64,000 nucleotides of DNA from Leptolinea sp. (GTDB lineage: Bacteria > Chloroflexota > Anaerolineae > Anaerolineales > Anaerolineaceae): assembly GCA_012798535.1 (NCBI GenBank), contig JAAZMZ010000003.1, positions 1 through 64,000 of the forward strand. Direction: 5' to 3'. Shown here one piece after another: positions 6,519 to 15,727 of the stretch; the first letter of the stretch is position 1; the number at the start of each line of letters is the position of its first letter. The translations under genes were made by a program, and so were the position numbers. Under the pieces are notes generated by a model, which worked only from the letters and a program-made list of their open reading frames with translations, searched no databases and was not told the DNA's origin.

Positions 6519-8410
6519 TGAAGTCGCGTCCCAATATTCGCAATCGCTACGTACTTATGATCGATATCATTCTGATCGTAATCTCCGTCATAGGGAGCTA
6601 TGTGCTGCGCCTCGAATTGGGTGCCGCCTTTACGTTTTACCTGCCGTCCGCTTACTGGATGATTGGTTCCGCGCTGGTCATAAAACCTTTGATCTATTAT
6701 TACTTTCGGCTATACCGGCGTTTATGGATCTACGCTTCGATCCAGGAACTCAAATTGATCATCGCCGCTGTCTCATCTGCTTCGGTTCTCCTTTCGGTGG
6801 TGATGGTCAGTTTTTTCAATCTGGGATTATTCACGGGATTTCCCAGATCTGTTCTAATCATTGACTGGTTGATTTCCCTGATGCTGGTTGGCGGATTGCG
6901 TTTTACAATCCGCCTGCTTTCCGAAAGTTACACCCAGCAAGTGGCAGGTTCTTACAATGGAAAGACAAAGAAAGCTCTGATCATCGGTGCGGGTGACGCA
7001 GGTGCGCTGGTGGTACGCGAACTGAAAAAAAATCCCCAGGTGAATCTGGTGCCAATCGGTTTTCTGGATGACAATCCGATCAAGTATCGGCAACAAATCC
7101 ACGGAGTTCCGGTGATTGGCTCATTGACCGATCTGGCCAAAGTGCTGGATAACCGGCGGGTGGATGAGGTGATCATCGCCATTCCAAGTGCACCCGGCAA
7201 GGTCATCCGCATGGTCACCGATGTGTGCCGCTTGAAAGCTGTACATTTCCGAACGATGCCGGGAATTTATGAATTGCTGGGCGGCAAGGTCAATGTTAAC
7301 CGTCTGCGTGAAGTGGATATTACGGACCTGCTACGGCGTGAACCCACCCGGATCATGGATGAACAGGTGGGGCGGACCATCAACAACCAGGTCGTTCTGG
7401 TTACCGGTGCCGGTGGATCTATTGGTTCGGAACTATGCCGCCAGATTGGCCGCTGGAATCCGGCGGAACTCATTTTGCTGGGACATGGTGAAAATAGCAT
7501 TTTCGAAGCCTATCTTGAATTGCAGGATCGTTTTCCATCACTAACCCTGAGACCGGTCATCGCTGATATTCGCGATAGAGACCATATCGACCGAATTTTA
7601 AACTGTTACAAACCACAGGTTGTCTTCCATGCCGCTGCCCATAAACATGTTCCGTTGATGGAAAGTAATATTGAAGAGGCTGTCACCAATAACATAGAAG
7701 GCACGCGCAATCTGGTTCTTTCTGCCGTGGATCATGATGTGGAAAGACTGGTGATGATTTCCACCGATAAGGCCATCCGTCCGGTAAATGTGATGGGTGC
7801 GACGAAACGTCTGGCCGAAATGACAGTTCTGGATGCGGCGGAAAAATACCACCGCGATTATTGTGTTGTGCGCTTTGGCAATGTTCTGGGCAGCCGGGGG
7901 AGCGTGGTCCCGCTGTTCAAACGCCAGATCGCCCGGGGTGGCCCGGTCACCATCACACACCCTGATATGAAACGTTATTTTATGACCATTCCTGAAGCGG
8001 TGAATCTCGTGCTTCAGTCAGCCTCCATGGGGCAGGGTGGAGAGACCTATGTTCTTAATATGGGTGAGCAGATCAGAATTCTTGATCTGGCGGAAGACCT
8101 GATCCGTCTTTCTGGTCTGGAACCGGGCCGTGATGTGGAGATCGTATTTACCGGCATCCGCCCGGGAGAAAAGTTGAGCGAGGATCTCTGGGACAACAGC
8201 AATGCCTTTGTCCGCACGCCACACCCTGATGTCTATAAAGTGGACGGCAGCGAGGATCTGCGTGGGGACGAATTGAAAAAAGCTATCGACGAGATCATTC
8301 AACAGGCACGTAATGGAAATGATGATGCCGTGCTGGAGATGATGGATGATCTCATTCCAGGCGCGTCTGTGCGCAGTACGCAGCCGCATGAGTTGATATC
8401 CATTGACTGA
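6515..8410 (+). CDS. CapD/FlaA1-like nucleotide-sugar epimerase/dehydratase
   Basis: A 631-residue membrane-bound member of the polysaccharide biosynthesis CapD family (long WbpM/PglF form). Four N-terminal membrane helices precede a first Rossmann-like domain (IIGAGDAGALVVREL near 156) and a second catalytic SDR domain starting VLVTGAGGSIGSE near 294. The family motif STDKAIRPVNVMGATKR holds the catalytic Lys. Relatives convert UDP-GlcNAc to 4-keto-6-deoxy sugars on the way to bacillosamine- or QuiNAc-type sugars. Being next to the initiating transferase, it probably supplies the first sugar. The exact product cannot be told from sequence. Confidence 0.93.
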   Translation: MMKSRPNIRNRYVLMIDIILIVISVIGSYVLRLELGAAFTFYLPSAYWMIGSALVIKPLIYYYFRLYRRLWIYASIQELKLIIAAVSSASVLLSVVMVSFFNLGLFTGFPRSVLIIDWLISLMLVGGLRFTIRLLSESYTQQVAGSYNGKTKKALIIGAGDAGALVVRELKKNPQVNLVPIGFLDDNPIKYRQQIHGVPVIGSLTDLAKVLDNRRVDEVIIAIPSAPGKVIRMVTDVCRLKAVHFRTMPGIYELLGGKVNVNRLREVDITDLLRREPTRIMDEQVGRTINNQVVLVTGAGGSIGSELCRQIGRWNPAELILLGHGENSIFEAYLELQDRFPSLTLRPVIADIRDRDHIDRILNCYKPQVVFHAAAHKHVPLMESNIEEAVTNNIEGTRNLVLSAVDHDVERLVMISTDKAIRPVNVMGATKRLAEMTVLDAAEKYHRDYCVVRFGNVLGSRGSVVPLFKRQIARGGPVTITHPDMKRYFMTIPEAVNLVLQSASMGQGGETYVLNMGEQIRILDLAEDLIRLSGLEPGRDVEIVFTGIRPGEKLSEDLWDNSNAFVRTPHPDVYKVDGSEDLRGDELKKAIDEIIQQARNGNDDAVLEMMDDLIPGASVRSTQPHELISID

Positions 8411-9408
8411 TGTCCATACTGACTTCTTCAGAGTGGGACAAATTTCTCGAAGAACGGCCTGACGCTCACCTCCTGCAGACTCGCATGTGGGGGGAATTCA
8501 AGAGCCATTTCAATTGGACCGCTGTCAGGTTAGCGAATGGATTGACCGGAGCGCAGATCCTTTTCAGAAGACTGCCACTCGGATTAACCATGGCGTATAT
8601 TCCCAAAGGTCCGGTTGGGGTAAATTGGAGAGAGCTTTGGCCGGAGGTCCATTCCACGTGCCGCCAAAACCATGCCATCTTCCTGCGCGTGGAACCTGAC
8701 CAGGAAGATCCCCTGAATGAAGCACAGTCGAGAGATATGGAAGGTTTTCTTCCGGTGGGTGACACCATTCAGCCGCGGCAGACCATTCTGGTTGACTTAA
8801 AAGGGGATCCGGAAGTCTGGTTGTCACATATGAAACAGAAAACGCGTTACAACACGCGGCTTGCTGAAAAGAAGGATGTTCGAGTTGTAGAAAGTCATGA
8901 TTTCGGCGCTTTCGAACGATTGATGAAGACCACTGGGACTAGGGATGGATTTGGTGTTCATCCCATCGAGTATTATCAGCAGGTGTATTCCCTGTTCTAT
9001 TCCTCCGGAGAAGTCGCATTACTTCAGGCGGAATGTGAAAACCGCCCTCTGGCCATGTTGATGGTTTTTGCCCATGGCAAAAGAGCATATTATCTGTATG
9101 GCGCATCTGACGACCGGGAACGCCATCGTATGCCAACATACCTCCTTCAATTTGAAGCTATGCGCTGGGCGGCATCAAAGAAGTGCGAGATCTATGATCT
9201 ATGGGGTATTCCAGACGCTCCGGAAGAAGAACTGGAAGCCAATTTCGAAATCCGTTCGGATGGTCTTTGGGGAGTTTATCGATTTAAACGAGGATTTGGC
9301 GGGCGGATCGTGCGATCTTGCCCGGGATATGATTTTGTATATCAGCCTTTGCTGTACCGGTTATTCCGCTGGCAAATGTCACGTAGTCGTGGAATGGCGG
9401 CAGGATGA
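8410..9408 (+). CDS. FemAB-like aminoacyltransferase, copy 1
   Basis: A 332-residue protein with the double GNAT fold of FemX/FemAB enzymes, which use aminoacyl-tRNA to add amino acids to lipid II. Visible features are the early LLQTRMWGEFK, the central helix MKQKTRYNTRLAEKK, RDGFGVHPIEYYQQV, and the C-terminal YLLQFEAMRWAASKKCEIYDLWG followed by GVYRFKRGFGG. It starts within the stop of the epimerase gene (TGATG) and its end overlaps the next gene by four bases. Its context also allows a role in decorating a polysaccharide with amino acids. The family is clear, the acceptor is not. Confidence 0.88.
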   Translation: MSILTSSEWDKFLEERPDAHLLQTRMWGEFKSHFNWTAVRLANGLTGAQILFRRLPLGLTMAYIPKGPVGVNWRELWPEVHSTCRQNHAIFLRVEPDQEDPLNEAQSRDMEGFLPVGDTIQPRQTILVDLKGDPEVWLSHMKQKTRYNTRLAEKKDVRVVESHDFGAFERLMKTTGTRDGFGVHPIEYYQQVYSLFYSSGEVALLQAECENRPLAMLMVFAHGKRAYYLYGASDDRERHRMPTYLLQFEAMRWAASKKCEIYDLWGIPDAPEEELEANFEIRSDGLWGVYRFKRGFGGRIVRSCPGYDFVYQPLLYRLFRWQMSRSRGMAAG

Positions 9409-10490
9409 ATTCCGCAGGATGGAATCAGATCATCGAAGAATTGCCAGGTGCCAGTTTCCTTCAAACCGAAGAATGGGCCAGGATCAAAGCACCAGTTGGC
9501 TGGCGGTCTGAGCAAGTCATCTGGCCTGAAAGTGCCGGAAAGATACGGGCGGCTGCCATGATGCTTTACCGCTCGCCATCTCGGCTGCCGGTTTCCATTG
9601 CCTATGTACCACGGGGGCCGTTGCTGGATTGGACAGATGCAAGTGTGTATATGTCCTTTCTATCCGAATTGATCGCAAAGGCGCGTCAGAACAGGGCGGT
9701 ATTTCTAAAGATCGATCCGAGCCTGATAATTGGAACGGGTATCCCCGGCACACAGGATGATAGACCTGATCCGATCGGGGTTGGAGTTCAGCAATACCTG
9801 AAGGATAACGGCTGGCGATTCTCCTCCGACCAGATCCAATTTCGGAATACGGTAGAAATCGACCTCACTGCTTCTGAAAATGAAATTCTCATGCGCATGC
9901 ATCCCAAGACACGATATAACATCCGGCTGGCAGAACGCAGGGGAGTGAATGTTATCGATGCCAGGCGGGAAGACTGGCCGTCGATCTATCATCTTTATAC
10001 GGAAACCGCCGACAGGGATGGTTTTATCATCCGTCCGTGGGAATACTATCAACGAGTCTGGCAGATACTATCGGATGGCCAAATGGCCACGTGTTTGAAA
10101 GCTGAAATCGATGGTGAGTTGATTGGAGCGATCTGGGTGATCGGTTTTGGGAAGAAGTCACATTATTTATACGGTATGTCAGGCTTGAAGCACCGGGAAG
10201 ATATGCCCAACCATCTGCTGCAATGGCGGGCGATTCAGATGGCTAGATCTCAGGGCAGGGAAATCTATGATATGTGGGGTGCGCCGGACGAATTCACCGG
10301 GGATGATCGATTATCCGGAGTTTATCGTTTCAAGAGGGGATTCGGCGGCGAGGTCGTTCGCACTCTGGGCGCCTGGGATTACCCGATCTGGCCGGTAACC
10401 TACCGGATGTACACCAGTCTCCTCCCTCGAATTTTGGATGTGATGCGCAGGCGCAACCGCTCGAATACGCGGCGTTACCTGGAGAGTTAA
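9405..10490 (+). CDS. FemAB-like aminoacyltransferase, copy 2
   Basis: A 361-residue paralogue of the preceding gene, overlapping it by ATGA. It keeps the same landmarks: FLQTEEWARIK, MHPKTRYNIRLAERRGV, RDGFIIRPWEYYQRV, HLLQWRAIQMARSQGREIYDMWG and GVYRFKRGFGGEVVR. Staphylococcal FemA/FemB and other family members also act as successive pairs, so the two may add consecutive residues of one bridge. This is inference. The stop codon shares TTAA with the convergent kinase gene, giving a four-base tail-to-tail overlap with no room for a separate terminator. Confidence 0.88.
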   Translation: MNSAGWNQIIEELPGASFLQTEEWARIKAPVGWRSEQVIWPESAGKIRAAAMMLYRSPSRLPVSIAYVPRGPLLDWTDASVYMSFLSELIAKARQNRAVFLKIDPSLIIGTGIPGTQDDRPDPIGVGVQQYLKDNGWRFSSDQIQFRNTVEIDLTASENEILMRMHPKTRYNIRLAERRGVNVIDARREDWPSIYHLYTETADRDGFIIRPWEYYQRVWQILSDGQMATCLKAEIDGELIGAIWVIGFGKKSHYLYGMSGLKHREDMPNHLLQWRAIQMARSQGREIYDMWGAPDEFTGDDRLSGVYRFKRGFGGEVVRTLGAWDYPIWPVTYRMYTSLLPRILDVMRRRNRSNTRRYLES

Positions 10491-12457
10491 TTTCCCGGTA
10501 AGGGCTTCCAGACAGGCTGATAAGACTTCTCATTGTCAGGCGTGAGTGGTTCCGCTCCACTCCCTTCAAGAGATATTCGATACACCTGATGGGTGCCGCC
10601 CAGATTTGAATCAAAGAGAATCCACCGGTTATCAGGCGAAATATCGGGATTGGCTGCAAAGGTGAGGCGGTTGTTGATGATCTTATCGGCCGTATTGGCG
10701 GCTCCTGCCTTTTTTATCGATAACAGCAGTGAGTTGGTTTGACTGAAGATGATCGTTTTGGCATCAGGGGACCAATCCGGTGTGAAACCCGCTCCGCTGT
10801 TCTGATTCGAGAAGACCCGGGGATTTTGCCCGTCGCTGTCCATAGTCCAAATTTGCCAGGTGCCTGTGCGCATTGAACTAAAGGCGATCTGCTTCGCATC
10901 CGGCGACCAGGCAGGTTGACGGTTTCCTGCCATGGTTTTCGTTAACTGGCTGGTTTGTTCGGATTGCAAATCGTAGAGATAAATTTGCGGTATCTTTGAA
11001 CGCAGGGAGGTAAACGCTATCTGTCGACCATCCGGAGACCAGGCTGGATCAAAATCTCCTCCCGGCAGGGATGGAATCGGAATGACCTGTTTATTCTCGA
11101 GTAAAAAGATGAATAGTCCGGCTCCAGAGTATGGATCAGTTTTTCCCACGGTCTTTGCTTTTGGAGGGCAGGGAGATATGAAAACGATCCTTTTTCCATC
11201 CGGCGACCAATCCGGCTGACAGGCGCCTTCGGAAATCTCTGTCAGTTGCTCTATCTTTGATGAATCTATTGAGCCCAGGAAGATTTGCGGAATTTCAGAT
11301 TTTTCTGCAACAAAAGCGAATACCCCGGCACCGCCACCCAGAGGCGTCGGTTTTTGTTCCACAATGAGAGCGGTTGGTGTTCCAGACATGATCCTGGGAA
11401 TTTCATGTGTTGGCTCCGGTTGTTCCGTCACACTTTCTGGCAAAGTGGAAAGAACCACAGGGATGGTCACGCTCGTCTGGATGGCGAGTGTTGGTTTGGA
11501 TGTGGGACCTGACAGACTCGTCCAAAGAAGGATGGCCGCTGCCAGGACGATTATTACTCCAAATGATATTGCGGCAATCGTCAGGATCGATTTACTGCCT
11601 GTTTCCGGTCTGGTGTAGCGCTGTTTCCTGGTTGTCAGGGTTGACACTTCCGGCTGGGTTTTGATCACCGAACCAAGTGCATCAAGAAAGGATTGGATAT
11701 TCGGATAACGGTCTTCGGGATTGATTTGAAGTGCTTTCTGCAGACAGGTGAGAATATCAAGCGGAATTCGGGCAGCCATCCTTTCAGGCAGCTGGCTGTT
11801 GCCTGAAGCGCGGTTCAATCCATCTGCAAGCACGGAACCGGTAAGGGCAAAGAACAGAGTTGCCGCCAGTCCATATTGATCTGAAGCCATATCAGCCATC
11901 CGGTTGTACTGTTCCGGGGCGGCAAAGCCCGGTGTCAATCCCTGTTCATGAGTACTCGGTCGTGTCTGATTATCCTGAACAGTCGTGATCAGATCAAAAT
12001 CTACCAGGGTGACACTTCTATCCGGTTTGATGCGAATATTCCCCGGTTTCACATCCTGATGAATGATGGGAGGAGTCTGTGAATGCAGATACTGAAGAGC
12101 TGATCCAATCGTCATGATAATGTCAACAGCTTCGCCAATCTTTAATGGTCCGCTTTTTTCCACCCTCTGCTTCAGGTCTTCACCGGGGATGTAATCCATC
12201 ACCAGTATCTGAGCGCCATCCGCCAGAGTAAATGTATCCGTGATCCGGGGGATGGCAGGATGGTGAAGACTGCCCAGCAGGGATGCATTCTTACGCATCT
12301 GCTCTCCGGTCATTCTGCCTGGAATGGATTCTTTAATAGCAACTTCCACACTCAGGCTTTCATCTCTGGCGCGATAAACAATTCCCATTCCCCCGCTGGC
12401 GAGAACCTGAACGATCCGATAACGGTCTTTTACTACTTCACCAATATGAAGAGTCAT
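10487..12457 (-). CDS. Ser/Thr kinase-like receptor with propeller, degenerate motifs
   Basis: A 656-residue protein: kinase domain (about 12-270), one membrane helix (about 285-308) and an outer TolB/PD40-type propeller with repeats such as DWSPDGKRIVF and AWSPDGRQIAF. The fold is kept, with Lys42 and Asn140. However, the glycine loop has Ala20 for its first Gly, the catalytic loop reads HQD (133-135) rather than HRD, and the DFG motif is DFD (153-155). It could be a weak or non-standard kinase, or a pseudokinase partner of its neighbour. It is second in a two-gene operon, joined by an ATGA overlap. Confidence 0.88.
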   Translation of the reverse strand: MTLHIGEVVKDRYRIVQVLASGGMGIVYRARDESLSVEVAIKESIPGRMTGEQMRKNASLLGSLHHPAIPRITDTFTLADGAQILVMDYIPGEDLKQRVEKSGPLKIGEAVDIIMTIGSALQYLHSQTPPIIHQDVKPGNIRIKPDRSVTLVDFDLITTVQDNQTRPSTHEQGLTPGFAAPEQYNRMADMASDQYGLAATLFFALTGSVLADGLNRASGNSQLPERMAARIPLDILTCLQKALQINPEDRYPNIQSFLDALGSVIKTQPEVSTLTTRKQRYTRPETGSKSILTIAAISFGVIIVLAAAILLWTSLSGPTSKPTLAIQTSVTIPVVLSTLPESVTEQPEPTHEIPRIMSGTPTALIVEQKPTPLGGGAGVFAFVAEKSEIPQIFLGSIDSSKIEQLTEISEGACQPDWSPDGKRIVFISPCPPKAKTVGKTDPYSGAGLFIFLLENKQVIPIPSLPGGDFDPAWSPDGRQIAFTSLRSKIPQIYLYDLQSEQTSQLTKTMAGNRQPAWSPDAKQIAFSSMRTGTWQIWTMDSDGQNPRVFSNQNSGAGFTPDWSPDAKTIIFSQTNSLLLSIKKAGAANTADKIINNRLTFAANPDISPDNRWILFDSNLGGTHQVYRISLEGSGAEPLTPDNEKSYQPVWKPLPGN

Positions 12458-14610
12458 GGAATTGATGTTGAGATCGGTTTCCAGACAGGGCTAAAATCGC
12501 GTTCTTTATCTGTTGTCAACCGCCGGCGGTCAGAGCCATCTATCGAGATGATATAGATATCATGGTTGGTTCCATCCGGCCAGCTTTCATATGTACCCCA
12601 TTTTCCATCGGGAGAAATAGCCAGTTCGGTGGCAGGGCCGATATCCGCCGCACCCACGGGAGGCAGGCGGAATTCCAGGCTCTTGCCACGATTCTCGTAG
12701 GACAATCCTACAAGATACGGTAAGAATGGTTCAGGGCTGGTTTGCGAGTAGAACAAAATCGAACCATCTCTGCTCCATTCCGGCCAGTAATTTTTTACGG
12801 CGCCGCTCGGACTGTACTGGAATTGCTGCTTCCCCGTCAGGTCTGTGATCCAGATTTGTGAATTGGGAAACTGGCGTACGAATGCCAGTTGCAACCCGCT
12901 GGGAGCCCAGGAGGGCTGAATATCCCCGTAGCTGGCGCTGGTTACCTGTTTCACAGAAGAATCCTCGAAAGAGAACAGGAAGATATGAGGTTTTGTGTCA
13001 GTCCGTAGCGAGGCAAAAGCGATCTTTTTGCCATCAGGCGACCATGCTGGATTGAAATCGCCGGCCGGATTCATTGGCGCGGGCATAAGGTGTACGTTCT
13101 TACCGTCAGCGTTTGACAAATATATCTGAGAACCGGCATAAATATCTTTCTTGCCGATACAAGGCGAGATAAACGCCAGTTGAGTACCGTCCGGTGACCA
13201 GGCGGGCTGGCACGCACCATCAGCCAATCCGGTCATCTGTTTCTGGGTGGATCCATCCGGGTTCATTGACCAGATCTGTGAATTTCCTGTTCGTTCTGAA
13301 GTGAATGCGATCAGATCACTTCCTCCAATAATGCTGATCAGGGGAGTCGCAGTCGGGCTGGGCGCTTCAGTGATTGTCATCGTTGGACTGTTTTCAACAG
13401 TGGGTTGTACAGCCATTTCGGTTGGCTGGATTGTTTGATTTTCTTCTGGCAGAAGAACAGGTGCAGAGGTTCGGGTCAACGATGGGATTGATGTACTGGT
13501 TTTTTGAACAACCGGGATTGGTGTAGGCCTGATAAAAGAAGGCAGGTTAGTCCATGGAACAAAGAAAGATCCCAGAACCAGCATGACAAGGACAACGGCT
13601 GAAATTAGCAGCACGCGTGATTTTGATCTGGCAGGTTTTTGTCGAGTCGATGGAGGTAATTCAATCGGAGCCGGTTCGACGACTTCCTCCTCTTCTTCGG
13701 GTGGTGTAAAGATCTCCTCGTAGTTCTGTGAAGAAGGAATGCTATCCACCGCTTCGGGTGGAGGTGCTGTGATTCTGGGTGGAGTGAGAAAACTGGTCGT
13801 CAGTTCCAGAGAATCCAACAGGGCTCTGCGAAATTCTGCCGCGGTTTGATAGCGGTCATTGGGATTGAGTTCCAAACCTTTTTCTATGACCACGGCCAGA
13901 TGCTTACTACAATTGGGTACAAATGTAGGGATCGGAGTAAGCGCCACATTATGAGTGGCCCGGGTAATGCTATCTTCCGGAATCGCACCGGTCAGGGCAG
14001 CATAGAGTGTGGCTGCCAGGGAATAAACATCAGTGCGCGCGTCTGTTCGGGCTGTGCCGTATTGCTCTGGCGGTGAATATCCGGGGGTCATAGCGCGGGC
14101 GCCGGTTGTTGTTGCCTGGTCGGCATATTCCTGTTTTACCAGACCAAAATCAACCAGGAAGACTTTTTGTGAGGGTGTGATCTTTATATTTCCGGGTTTG
14201 ATATCCCTGTGGATGACCGGCGGTATTCTGGTATGCAAATAGGTCAACGCGTCGCATACCGCTTCACCAATCAATACCACATCCCGGTCAGGAAGATGAT
14301 CCATCCGCTCAATTCGCTGGCGAAGGTCTTCTCCTTCGATGTAATCCATGACCAGATATTGCCCCTGCCGGGGGTAGGCAAAATAATCCGCGACTCTCGG
14401 CAATGCCGGATGACGAAGACTGGCCAGCGTGACAGCTTCTTTTTTAAACTGGCGCGCAAATTCATCGGCCAGATTGAGGTTCTCTTTAACGGCGACCGGA
14501 CTTCCCAGTCGTTCATCGACAGCTCGATAAACGGCCCCCATGCCACCCTGGCCGAGAACGGAGATAATTCGGTAACGATTATTTAGAATAGTGCCGGGTT
14601 CAAGAACCAT
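12454..14610 (-). CDS. Membrane Ser/Thr protein kinase with TolB-like propeller
   Basis: A 718-residue PknB-type receptor kinase. The catalytic domain (about 13-275) is canonical: GQGGMG loop at 20-25, Lys42, HRD 134-136 with Asn141, DFG 154-156 and an APE-like SPPEQYG. A disordered linker, one membrane helix (about 333-355) and a Thr/Pro-rich stalk lead to an outer six-bladed-type PD40 propeller (AWSPDGTQLAF, AWSPDGKKIAF). The propeller takes the place of PASTA repeats and may sense a wall polymer or protein. It is transcribed first and then the divergent paralogue follows with a four-base overlap. Confidence 0.93.
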   Translation of the reverse strand: MVLEPGTILNNRYRIISVLGQGGMGAVYRAVDERLGSPVAVKENLNLADEFARQFKKEAVTLASLRHPALPRVADYFAYPRQGQYLVMDYIEGEDLRQRIERMDHLPDRDVVLIGEAVCDALTYLHTRIPPVIHRDIKPGNIKITPSQKVFLVDFGLVKQEYADQATTTGARAMTPGYSPPEQYGTARTDARTDVYSLAATLYAALTGAIPEDSITRATHNVALTPIPTFVPNCSKHLAVVIEKGLELNPNDRYQTAAEFRRALLDSLELTTSFLTPPRITAPPPEAVDSIPSSQNYEEIFTPPEEEEEVVEPAPIELPPSTRQKPARSKSRVLLISAVVLVMLVLGSFFVPWTNLPSFIRPTPIPVVQKTSTSIPSLTRTSAPVLLPEENQTIQPTEMAVQPTVENSPTMTITEAPSPTATPLISIIGGSDLIAFTSERTGNSQIWSMNPDGSTQKQMTGLADGACQPAWSPDGTQLAFISPCIGKKDIYAGSQIYLSNADGKNVHLMPAPMNPAGDFNPAWSPDGKKIAFASLRTDTKPHIFLFSFEDSSVKQVTSASYGDIQPSWAPSGLQLAFVRQFPNSQIWITDLTGKQQFQYSPSGAVKNYWPEWSRDGSILFYSQTSPEPFLPYLVGLSYENRGKSLEFRLPPVGAADIGPATELAISPDGKWGTYESWPDGTNHDIYIISIDGSDRRRLTTDKERDFSPVWKPISTSIP

Positions 14611-14716: not shown

Positions 14717-15727
14717 ATGCCCAGCTCTCTTAACTTAGACATCGAAACCGCACTCCAGGTTCTTTTCTTTCTATCCGTCATTGGCGTAATTCTGGCTGGA
14801 CTTGCCGGAGCGCAATCCATACGTGCCGGTTTACGTTTAATGTTCTTCCGCAAACGGCAGGAAATGATCATGCGTGGTTGGCGGAACATTATACTGGCCA
14901 TCATCCTGGCGGGAGTGGCGTTTTCTCTGAATCAATATGCCAGACCGGCCATATACAGGGTATTTCCCCCGTCGCCAACGATCACCCTGACTCCAACCAT
15001 GACTTTGACCCCGTCAATCACCCTGACGCCAACCATCACCATGACACCCACCATTACCGAGACCCCGCTGTTTTCTCCCACGCCGGTTATTCCCACACAA
15101 ATGTTAACGAAGTTCCTGGGGCAGGTCACTCCCAATCCGGATGCCGTCTTCAGCAGCCTGCAATTCAGCCGCAAGATCGAAGGTAATCTGCCAGTCGAAC
15201 CGCTTGTTGAGTTCGCCAATCCCGTGAATCATCTTTATGGCACTTTCAGTTATGACAAGATGCTGGATGGTTCACAGTGGACGGCCATCTGGCTGCAAGG
15301 GACGGAGATTGTCTGTCAGGAAACAAAACCCTGGGATGGCGGTTCCGGAGGATACGGGTACACAGACTGTTTGCTGCCGGGGGAGAAGTGGTTGCCGGGA
15401 GAGTATGAAGTCCAGATATTCCTGGGCAGGCAATATATCACCGGTGGAAAATTCAAGGTGACCGGAGACGCACCAACGCCGACGCGTACACCAATTCCAA
15501 CCAGAACAACCGCACCGACCAGCACGCGCCGGCCGACGGCGACTCAGATACCGAGCATAACGCAAACCAGCCGCACTATCGCTCCAACCGCGACCATGCG
15601 GTCGACCATCACAGCCAGAGCCACCCTGATTACCAGTCAGCCCACAGCCACACAGCAAAGCACAGTCGCACCGGACGTCCGGGTGGTTACCTCAACCGGA
15701 ACACCGGGTTCAGGATATATTCCGTAA
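14717..15727 (+). CDS. Membrane protein with Thr/Pro-rich linkers, unknown function
   Basis: Not recognised. The 336-residue protein has two hydrophobic helices near the N-terminus (about 10-35 and 52-72), then a Thr/Pro-rich linker built of T-P-T-x-T-x units (about 85-130). A compact domain follows (about 133-250) with WLQGTEIVCQE, a DGGSGGYGYTDC turn and LPGEYEVQIFLG, looking like an all-beta extracellular module with two cysteines. The C-terminal 85 residues are again Thr/Pro/Arg-rich and disordered. It is probably surface exposed. It stands head to head with the two receptor kinases, which makes a shared sensory or wall role possible, as an inference. Confidence 0.7.
   Translation: MPSSLNLDIETALQVLFFLSVIGVILAGLAGAQSIRAGLRLMFFRKRQEMIMRGWRNIILAIILAGVAFSLNQYARPAIYRVFPPSPTITLTPTMTLTPSITLTPTITMTPTITETPLFSPTPVIPTQMLTKFLGQVTPNPDAVFSSLQFSRKIEGNLPVEPLVEFANPVNHLYGTFSYDKMLDGSQWTAIWLQGTEIVCQETKPWDGGSGGYGYTDCLLPGEKWLPGEYEVQIFLGRQYITGGKFKVTGDAPTPTRTPIPTRTTAPTSTRRPTATQIPSITQTSRTIAPTATMRSTITARATLITSQPTATQQSTVAPDVRVVTSTGTPGSGYIP
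14970..15090 (+). repeat. Degenerate tandem coding repeat (Thr-Pro units)
   Basis: Short units of the form ACC-CTG-ACN-CCN repeat in frame, for example accctgactccaaccatg then actttgaccccgtcaatc and accctgacgccaaccatc. The unit is about 18 bases and encodes a six-residue T-L-T-P-T-x motif. The copies differ mostly at third positions, suggesting an old, selected repeat. It could change length by slippage. Confidence 0.6.

Follow-up and report, generated by a model that had tools for sequence, protein, structure and literature searches.

A tandem pair of receptor-like kinase genes

The window analysed here, a stretch of 64,000 nucleotides belonging to a 3.5-Mb draft genome of the genus Leptolinea (Anaerolineaceae, Chloroflexota), carries on its minus strand two adjacent genes for receptor-like protein kinases, called K1 and K2 below. 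Sequence comparison shows that these membrane receptor Ser/Thr kinases form a tandem of long standing, in which K1 stayed canonical and the K2 kinase domain was altered in Leptolinea. The stop codon of K1 and the start codon of K2 share the bases ATGA, giving a 4-bp overlap with K2 downstream of K1. No literature on the pair was found in the open-licence part of PubMed Central (PMC). The features of the two genes are as follows.

12454..14610, minus strand: K1, canonical paralogue of 718 amino acids (aa) with the architecture of K2 (open reading frame, domain hits, AlphaFold2 (AF2) model)
10487..12457, minus strand: K2, receptor kinase-like gene of 656 aa (open reading frame, domain hits, AF2 model)
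K2, about aa 13-265: kinase domain (domain hits, AF2 model)
K2, about aa 289-315: hydrophobic helix (AF2 model)
K2, about aa 378-652: TolB-like propeller, preceded by a low-complexity linker that follows the helix
12287..12289, minus strand: codon of Asn57, which replaces the alphaC Glu (alignment; codon place calculated from the start at 12457; within helix 51-62 of the model)
12050..12061, minus strand: HQDV of the catalytic loop, H133 Q134 D135 V136 (pattern match HQDVKPGN at 12038-12061)
11990..12001, minus strand: DFDL in place of DFGL, D153 F154 D155 L156 (pattern match, alignment)
11936..11989, minus strand: K2 activation segment, aa 157-174, with the TTTGA(R/Q)A motif broken (predicted local distance difference test score, pLDDT, below 50 at 158-171)

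Both proteins have Pkinase and PD40 domains above the Pfam cut-offs, and K2 scores 99.4 bits against PF00069, the Hanks-type Ser/Thr kinase fold (curated cut-off 31.7). The AF2 model of K2 (mean pLDDT 79.5) has a kinase fold and, after a disordered linker, a propeller beginning near residue 378, in line with the initial annotation, which gave K2 a propeller of its own; the helix at 289-315 we read from this model as a membrane anchor. The models of K1 and K2 are similar (alphaC at 49-63 in K1 and 51-62 in K2, with a longer low-confidence loop in K2), and nothing firm was drawn from comparing them. In Foldseek searches the K2 propeller resembles TolB and the K2 kinase domain resembles Stk1 and PknA, and by sequence search the nearest solved structures are Stk1 and StkP for K2 and PknB for K1. 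These PknB/Stk1-type Hanks kinases, the nearest structure matches, have PASTA domains where K1 and K2 have a TolB-like propeller. No PASTA domain was among the Pfam hits of K1 or K2, and K2 scored 147.9 bits against NF033483 (PknB/Stk1 PASTA kinase), far below its cut-off of 450.

Substitutions in Leptolinea K2 and their distribution

The motifs of K2 read LASGGMG...VAIK...HQDVKPGN...DFDL...APE, and those of K1 read LGQGGMG...VAVK...HRDIKPGN...DFGL...PPE. The initial annotation had reported HQD for HRD and DFD for DFG in K2, with the ATP-binding Lys, catalytic Asp and Asn retained, beside a fully canonical upstream kinase, and all of this holds: HRD, DFG and the beta3 Lys are present in K1, and the beta3 Lys (K42), catalytic Asp (D135), Asn (N140) and metal Asp (D153) are kept in the K2 of all four Leptolinea genomes, as are the APE Glu, the DxY Asp and the C-lobe Arg. 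Two changes had been missed, namely E57N in alphaC and the breaking of the TTTGA(R/Q) loop motif, both found in all four.

In a kinase-domain alignment built from 40 regions, the window and further kinases from Leptolinea, all four Leptolinea K2 carry N57, Q134 and D155. The K2 of the window shares 53, 56 and 59% identity with the other three, and HQD and DFD are not chance because Q134 and D155 are the same in all four genomes despite this divergence. The three sites hold E, R and G in all 14 K2 of other genera, which match Leptolinea K2 in gene place, architecture and clade, and in 40 of 40 K1-type rows (L050 and L076, duplicate pairs from other genera, are among these rows; another count, without the L076 pair, gives 38). 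Only four further near-invariant sites have been replaced and fixed in Leptolinea K2 (L69I, P180A, G185N and I239L), and HQD and DFD occurring together in one kinase were seen only there. The other-genus K2 are not all perfect: in L045, which is among the 14, Pro replaces the His of HRD. The glycine loop had also been singled out as altered; the change is present and is not degeneration, since the first position of the loop is Gly in none of the 14 other-genus K2 (12 Ala, one Ser, one Thr) and in only one of the four from Leptolinea. The altered loop of K2 is, on these alignments, ancestral, and it was rejected as a sign of kinase death, Ala being usual in other-genus K2.

The activation loops of the four Leptolinea K2 read TRPSTHEQG, GKTTNDQG, TRPPISDLG and TQPPISVQG (two adjacent Thr are still present in one of them). 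K1 and those K2 of other genera whose loops were compared have TTTGA(R/Q)A or a near form at this place. It is coherent that the HRD Arg and the loop Thr motif were lost together, because this Arg normally holds a phosphorylated loop residue. For K2 as a putative receiver phosphorylated by K1, a role raised by the initial annotation, the two losses argue against phosphorylation of the activation loop. With HQD in all four genomes, Leptolinea K2 is a non-RD kinase, that is, one with a residue other than Arg before the catalytic Asp. It falls outside the strict pseudokinase rule of PMC12599244 (loss of the beta3 Lys, HRD Asp or DFG Asp), as K42, D135 and D153 are kept in all four, and the term pseudokinase, offered for K2 by the initial annotation, does not apply in that sense. 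The accompanying idea of a diverged K2 paired with a canonical kinase has fared better, with the changes fixed throughout Leptolinea and the usual residues in all 14 orthologues elsewhere.

The frequency of the two motifs was surveyed with pattern scans that detect only kinases having a KP(G/A)N loop and DF at a set spacing; the class scans (HQD, DFD and variants at the Gly place) covered the same 396 genomes, and the phylum scan covered 400 genomes overlapping those. HQD-x-KP(G/A)N was found in 26 of the 396 class genomes and in 8 of 147 family genomes, four of the eight being Leptolinea. All 29 HQD kinases from outside Leptolinea have DFG, and the alphaC Glu is kept in all 28 that have an N-lobe; HQD was rejected as a sign of kinase death, HQD kinases elsewhere being canonical at the other sites checked. 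DFD lay inside a kinase in 3 of the 396 class genomes and in 4 of the 147 family genomes (all Leptolinea), with one more among the 400 phylum genomes. The pattern matches inside kinases were 3 of 19 for the class, 4 of 8 for the family and 2 of 4 for the phylum, and 6 of 12 for D, E, N, K, T or A at the DFG-Gly place; the remaining matches, in which neither text pattern nor profile revealed a kinase frame, were dropped. The worry that both motifs might simply be common in the clade is thus justified for HQD, which is fairly common and says little by itself, and not for DFD, which is rare.

At the alphaC site the four DFD kinases hold Asn (Leptolinea K2), Lys (L213), Gly (L243) and the usual Glu (L210, which has HKN for HRD). 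In a tree of DFD kinases at least three origins of DFD are needed; L210 and L243 were not separated and may share one. The alphaC Glu is kept in 181 of 181 DFG rows with a residue at that place, out of a set of 196 distinct rows of which some may be partial copies of one gene, with seven gapped rows uncounted and L076 (GIG, alphaC Leu) outside the DFG count; it is also kept in 3 of 3 DFN kinases. Loss of the Glu in three of four DFD kinases versus none of 181 DFG rows gives a Fisher p of 3.9e-6 with rows taken as independent, a strong hint, from these alignments, that alphaC-Glu loss and DFD covary.

Several of the unusual genes met in these surveys may be described here. L210, at 1027-2988 on the plus strand (G298:C280), encodes a receptor-like kinase with HKN and DFD, a Thr/Pro-rich linker and a C-terminus that appears propeller-like by eye. 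L213 (1012-1893, plus strand) and L243 (789-2222, minus strand) are DFD kinases on different tree branches, with HRD kept and Lys or Gly for the alphaC Glu. L248 and L249 (G245, G420) are open frames of at least 1018 residues with two kinase-like domains, the first having the altered motifs RPEN and MNFD and the second DFN. Another family genome has three kinase-like genes in tandem, the third of which, at L076:9688-11319 on the plus strand (G020:C40), has TSDTTG, VIRE, HGDVQPAN and GIG in place of the usual motifs; judged by these it is clearly a degraded pseudokinase, and one apart from Leptolinea K2.

History and surroundings of the pair

In a rooted full-length tree that used 13 of the 18 K2 rows, with other family kinases as the root, all 13 K2 group together with Leptolinea nested inside (Shimodaira-Hasegawa-like approximate likelihood ratio test, SH-aLRT, 96.5). 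The unrooted propeller tree splits 22 K1 from 18 K2 with support of 100/99, and a first kinase-domain tree, whose bootstrap had not settled, groups the 18 K2 at 82/98. Three of four trees (the fourth is weighed below), together with gene place, trace Leptolinea K2 back to an ancestral K2 that had the usual residues, so far as sequences can tell. In changes per site, the stem of Leptolinea K2 is 1.95 long for the kinase domain and 0.89 for the propeller, and that of Leptolinea K1 is 0.58 and 0.68, the two trees coming from alignments with different rows. Within Leptolinea the kinase domains of K2 are 59-65% identical and its propellers 53-63%, and the corresponding values for K1 are 87-92% and 68-79%. 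The stem lengths and within-genus identities therefore indicate rapid change in a single domain of a single copy, followed by constraint.

The spacing between K1 and K2 in the four Leptolinea genomes is -4, +2, -4 and -4 bases, where the +2 depends on a non-ATG start, and in 11 pairs outside Leptolinea it is 7 to 54 bases. A K1-type kinase without K2 was found in at least 10 of the 29 family regions read. The genes on either side of the pair in the window are as follows.

14717..15727, plus strand: Thr/Pro-rich protein, divergent from K1 (open reading frame)
8410-9408 and 9405-10490, plus strand: two FemAB-family genes, convergent with K2 (open reading frames, domain hits)

The Thr/Pro-rich protein, which has no Pfam or NCBIfam match, is probably exported; relatives of it occur in 21 of 39 regions searched around kinase genes, not always adjoining the kinase, and it is a candidate partner of receptor kinases. 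FemAB relatives were found in 25 of the same 39 regions.

Possible function of K2

The reading preferred here, held tentatively and at close to an even chance, is that K2 binds ATP and Mg, has weak catalysis or none, and serves as an allosteric partner of K1 through contact between the kinase domains, as the substitutions and the analogies below suggest. Each protein has a PknB-like kinase domain, and its propeller would lie on the far side of the membrane. From the substitutions, which are observed directly, we infer roles of two kinds: E57N with G155D may exchange the latch between the beta3 Lys and the alphaC Glu for one between Lys42 and Asp155, adding a metal-binding acid, and R134Q with the broken loop Thr motif would remove control by activation-loop phosphorylation. 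We infer likewise the ATP binding and inactivity of K2, its contact with K1 and the direction of its effect on K1, in that K2 would tune K1 through a kinase-kinase contact while each partner reads its own propeller signal. K1 and K2 could then be likened to HER2 with HER3, or to BAK1 with the non-RD kinase EFR.

Several known kinases show parts of such a design. According to PMC12599244, the DYD family comprises bacterial Ser/Thr kinases and pseudokinases of actinobacteria and firmicutes with Arg for the beta3 Lys, in which the second Asp is modelled as bridging that Arg when the alphaC Glu is absent; like K2, these are membrane kinases without the alphaC Glu and with Asp for the DFG Gly. However, K2 keeps the beta3 Lys in all four genomes, has DFD rather than DYD, and nests in a Chloroflexota paralogue clade, and for these reasons we take its resemblance to the DYD family as convergence and not membership. 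Membership was rejected on the retained Lys and the Phe in the middle of the motif, absence of the alphaC Glu being the only criterion found in K2. The pseudokinase domain of RNase L similarly combines DFD with retained ATP-binding residues (PMC4718504, PMC6442604); Asp505 of its DFD contacts metal, and the domain binds ATP and has no kinase activity (PMC4718504). Unlike K2, RNase L is eukaryotic and fused to an RNase, and the Gly-to-Asp change is named as its one uncommon nucleotide-site substitution, whereas K2 has also lost the alphaC Glu. HER3, without an alphaC Glu, binds ATP and has weak activity only (PMC4718504), and activates HER2 (PMC8141879); EFR is a non-RD, active plant receptor kinase whose kinase-dead form still activates its partner BAK1 (PMC11259431). 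HER3-HER2/EGFR and EFR-BAK1 would each resemble K1/K2 in that a receptor whose own activity is weak or dispensable is paired with a second, active one, but these are animal and plant receptors, and the allostery of K1:K2 is putative. We think that K2 works like the pseudokinases and DYD kinases while being neither by rule, and that it is confined to Leptolinea among the genomes searched.

A number of observations weigh against this allosteric role. K42, D135, N140 and D153 are all present, hence K2 may be active, and Toxoplasma WNG1, which has an acidic residue at the DFG-Gly place, is described in PMC6442604 as an active kinase needing that residue. The covariation comprises four kinases with at least three origins, drawn from related rows with a convenience sample as the DFG set, and DFD versus DFN alone is not significant (p 0.14). 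K1 retains the residues of the back-to-back N-lobe interface of PknB, which we take to be R10, L33 and D76, and so for the most part does K2, one Leptolinea K2 having Glu in place of D76; they are also found in most of nine other kinases of the genus, and so give no sign of K1:K2 pairing. One draft genome (L047, G008:C136) has a canonical K2 with no K1 within 9 kb, directly beside a Thr/Pro-rich gene. Finally, the tree of DFD kinases, a quicker kinase-domain tree that takes in more distant sequences, sets Leptolinea K2 apart from a group formed by K1 and the remaining K2 (SH-aLRT 88); we take this as probable long-branch pull, and it makes us slightly less confident of the preferred reading.

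The main rival explanation, which is rather unlikely in our estimate, holds that K2 is an active, atypical non-RD kinase with its own targets, latched by the Lys42/Asp155 link and either constitutively on or otherwise controlled. The catalytic residues kept in every Leptolinea K2 accord with this, as do the 29 HQD kinases from outside the genus with DFG and, where readable, the alphaC Glu, the retention of HRD in L213 and L243 despite DFD and the missing Glu, and the activity of WNG1 with its acidic third residue (PMC6442604). Yet the stem of the K2 kinase domain is long relative to that of its propeller, and the domain now evolves as fast as the propeller, neither being true of K1; the loop Thr motif and P180 are gone, and L210, another DFD kinase, is also without the HRD Asp. 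K2 might otherwise lack catalysis and act as a sensor or scaffold, titrating K1 or inhibiting it through dominant-negative dimers, or it might recruit effectors as a substrate of K1, an explanation we consider improbable. Overlapping genes, a separate propeller and a complete predicted kinase fold would suit it, but the retained ATP- and metal-binding residues point to a role beyond scaffolding, no shared phospho-Thr motif is left in the loop, and the present data would suit activation and inhibition alike. Decay of a redundant duplicate under relaxed selection, on its way to loss, could be read from the faster evolution of K2 and from the family regions with a K1-type kinase alone. It is very unlikely, because decay would not fix the same residues: the frame is open in all four Leptolinea genomes, N57, Q134 and D155 are invariant, as are the four catalytic residues (K, D, N, D), and the kinase domains are 59-65% identical.

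An extended form of the preferred allosteric reading, doubtful as a whole, would make K1/K2 a bacterial pair of the HER2/HER3 type that arose in one genus, in which K2 re-invented a Lys-to-acid latch (as in DYD kinases and POMK) and became an ATP-locked allosteric activator without loop phosphorylation, so that two propeller signals are combined on one kinase; the covariation of alphaC Glu and DFD would then be a general rule for the switch from catalysis to ATP sensing.

In summary, the K1/K2 pair offers a K2 orthologue with the usual residues in sister genera, a presumably active twin next door and only seven fixed changes at near-invariant kinase sites, which makes it a clean test case for a receptor kinase turning into something else. 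Loss of the alphaC Glu with gain of the DFD Asp, seen in three of four DFD kinases and described for the DYD family, provides a testable sequence rule for ATP-binding, catalytically changed kinases.

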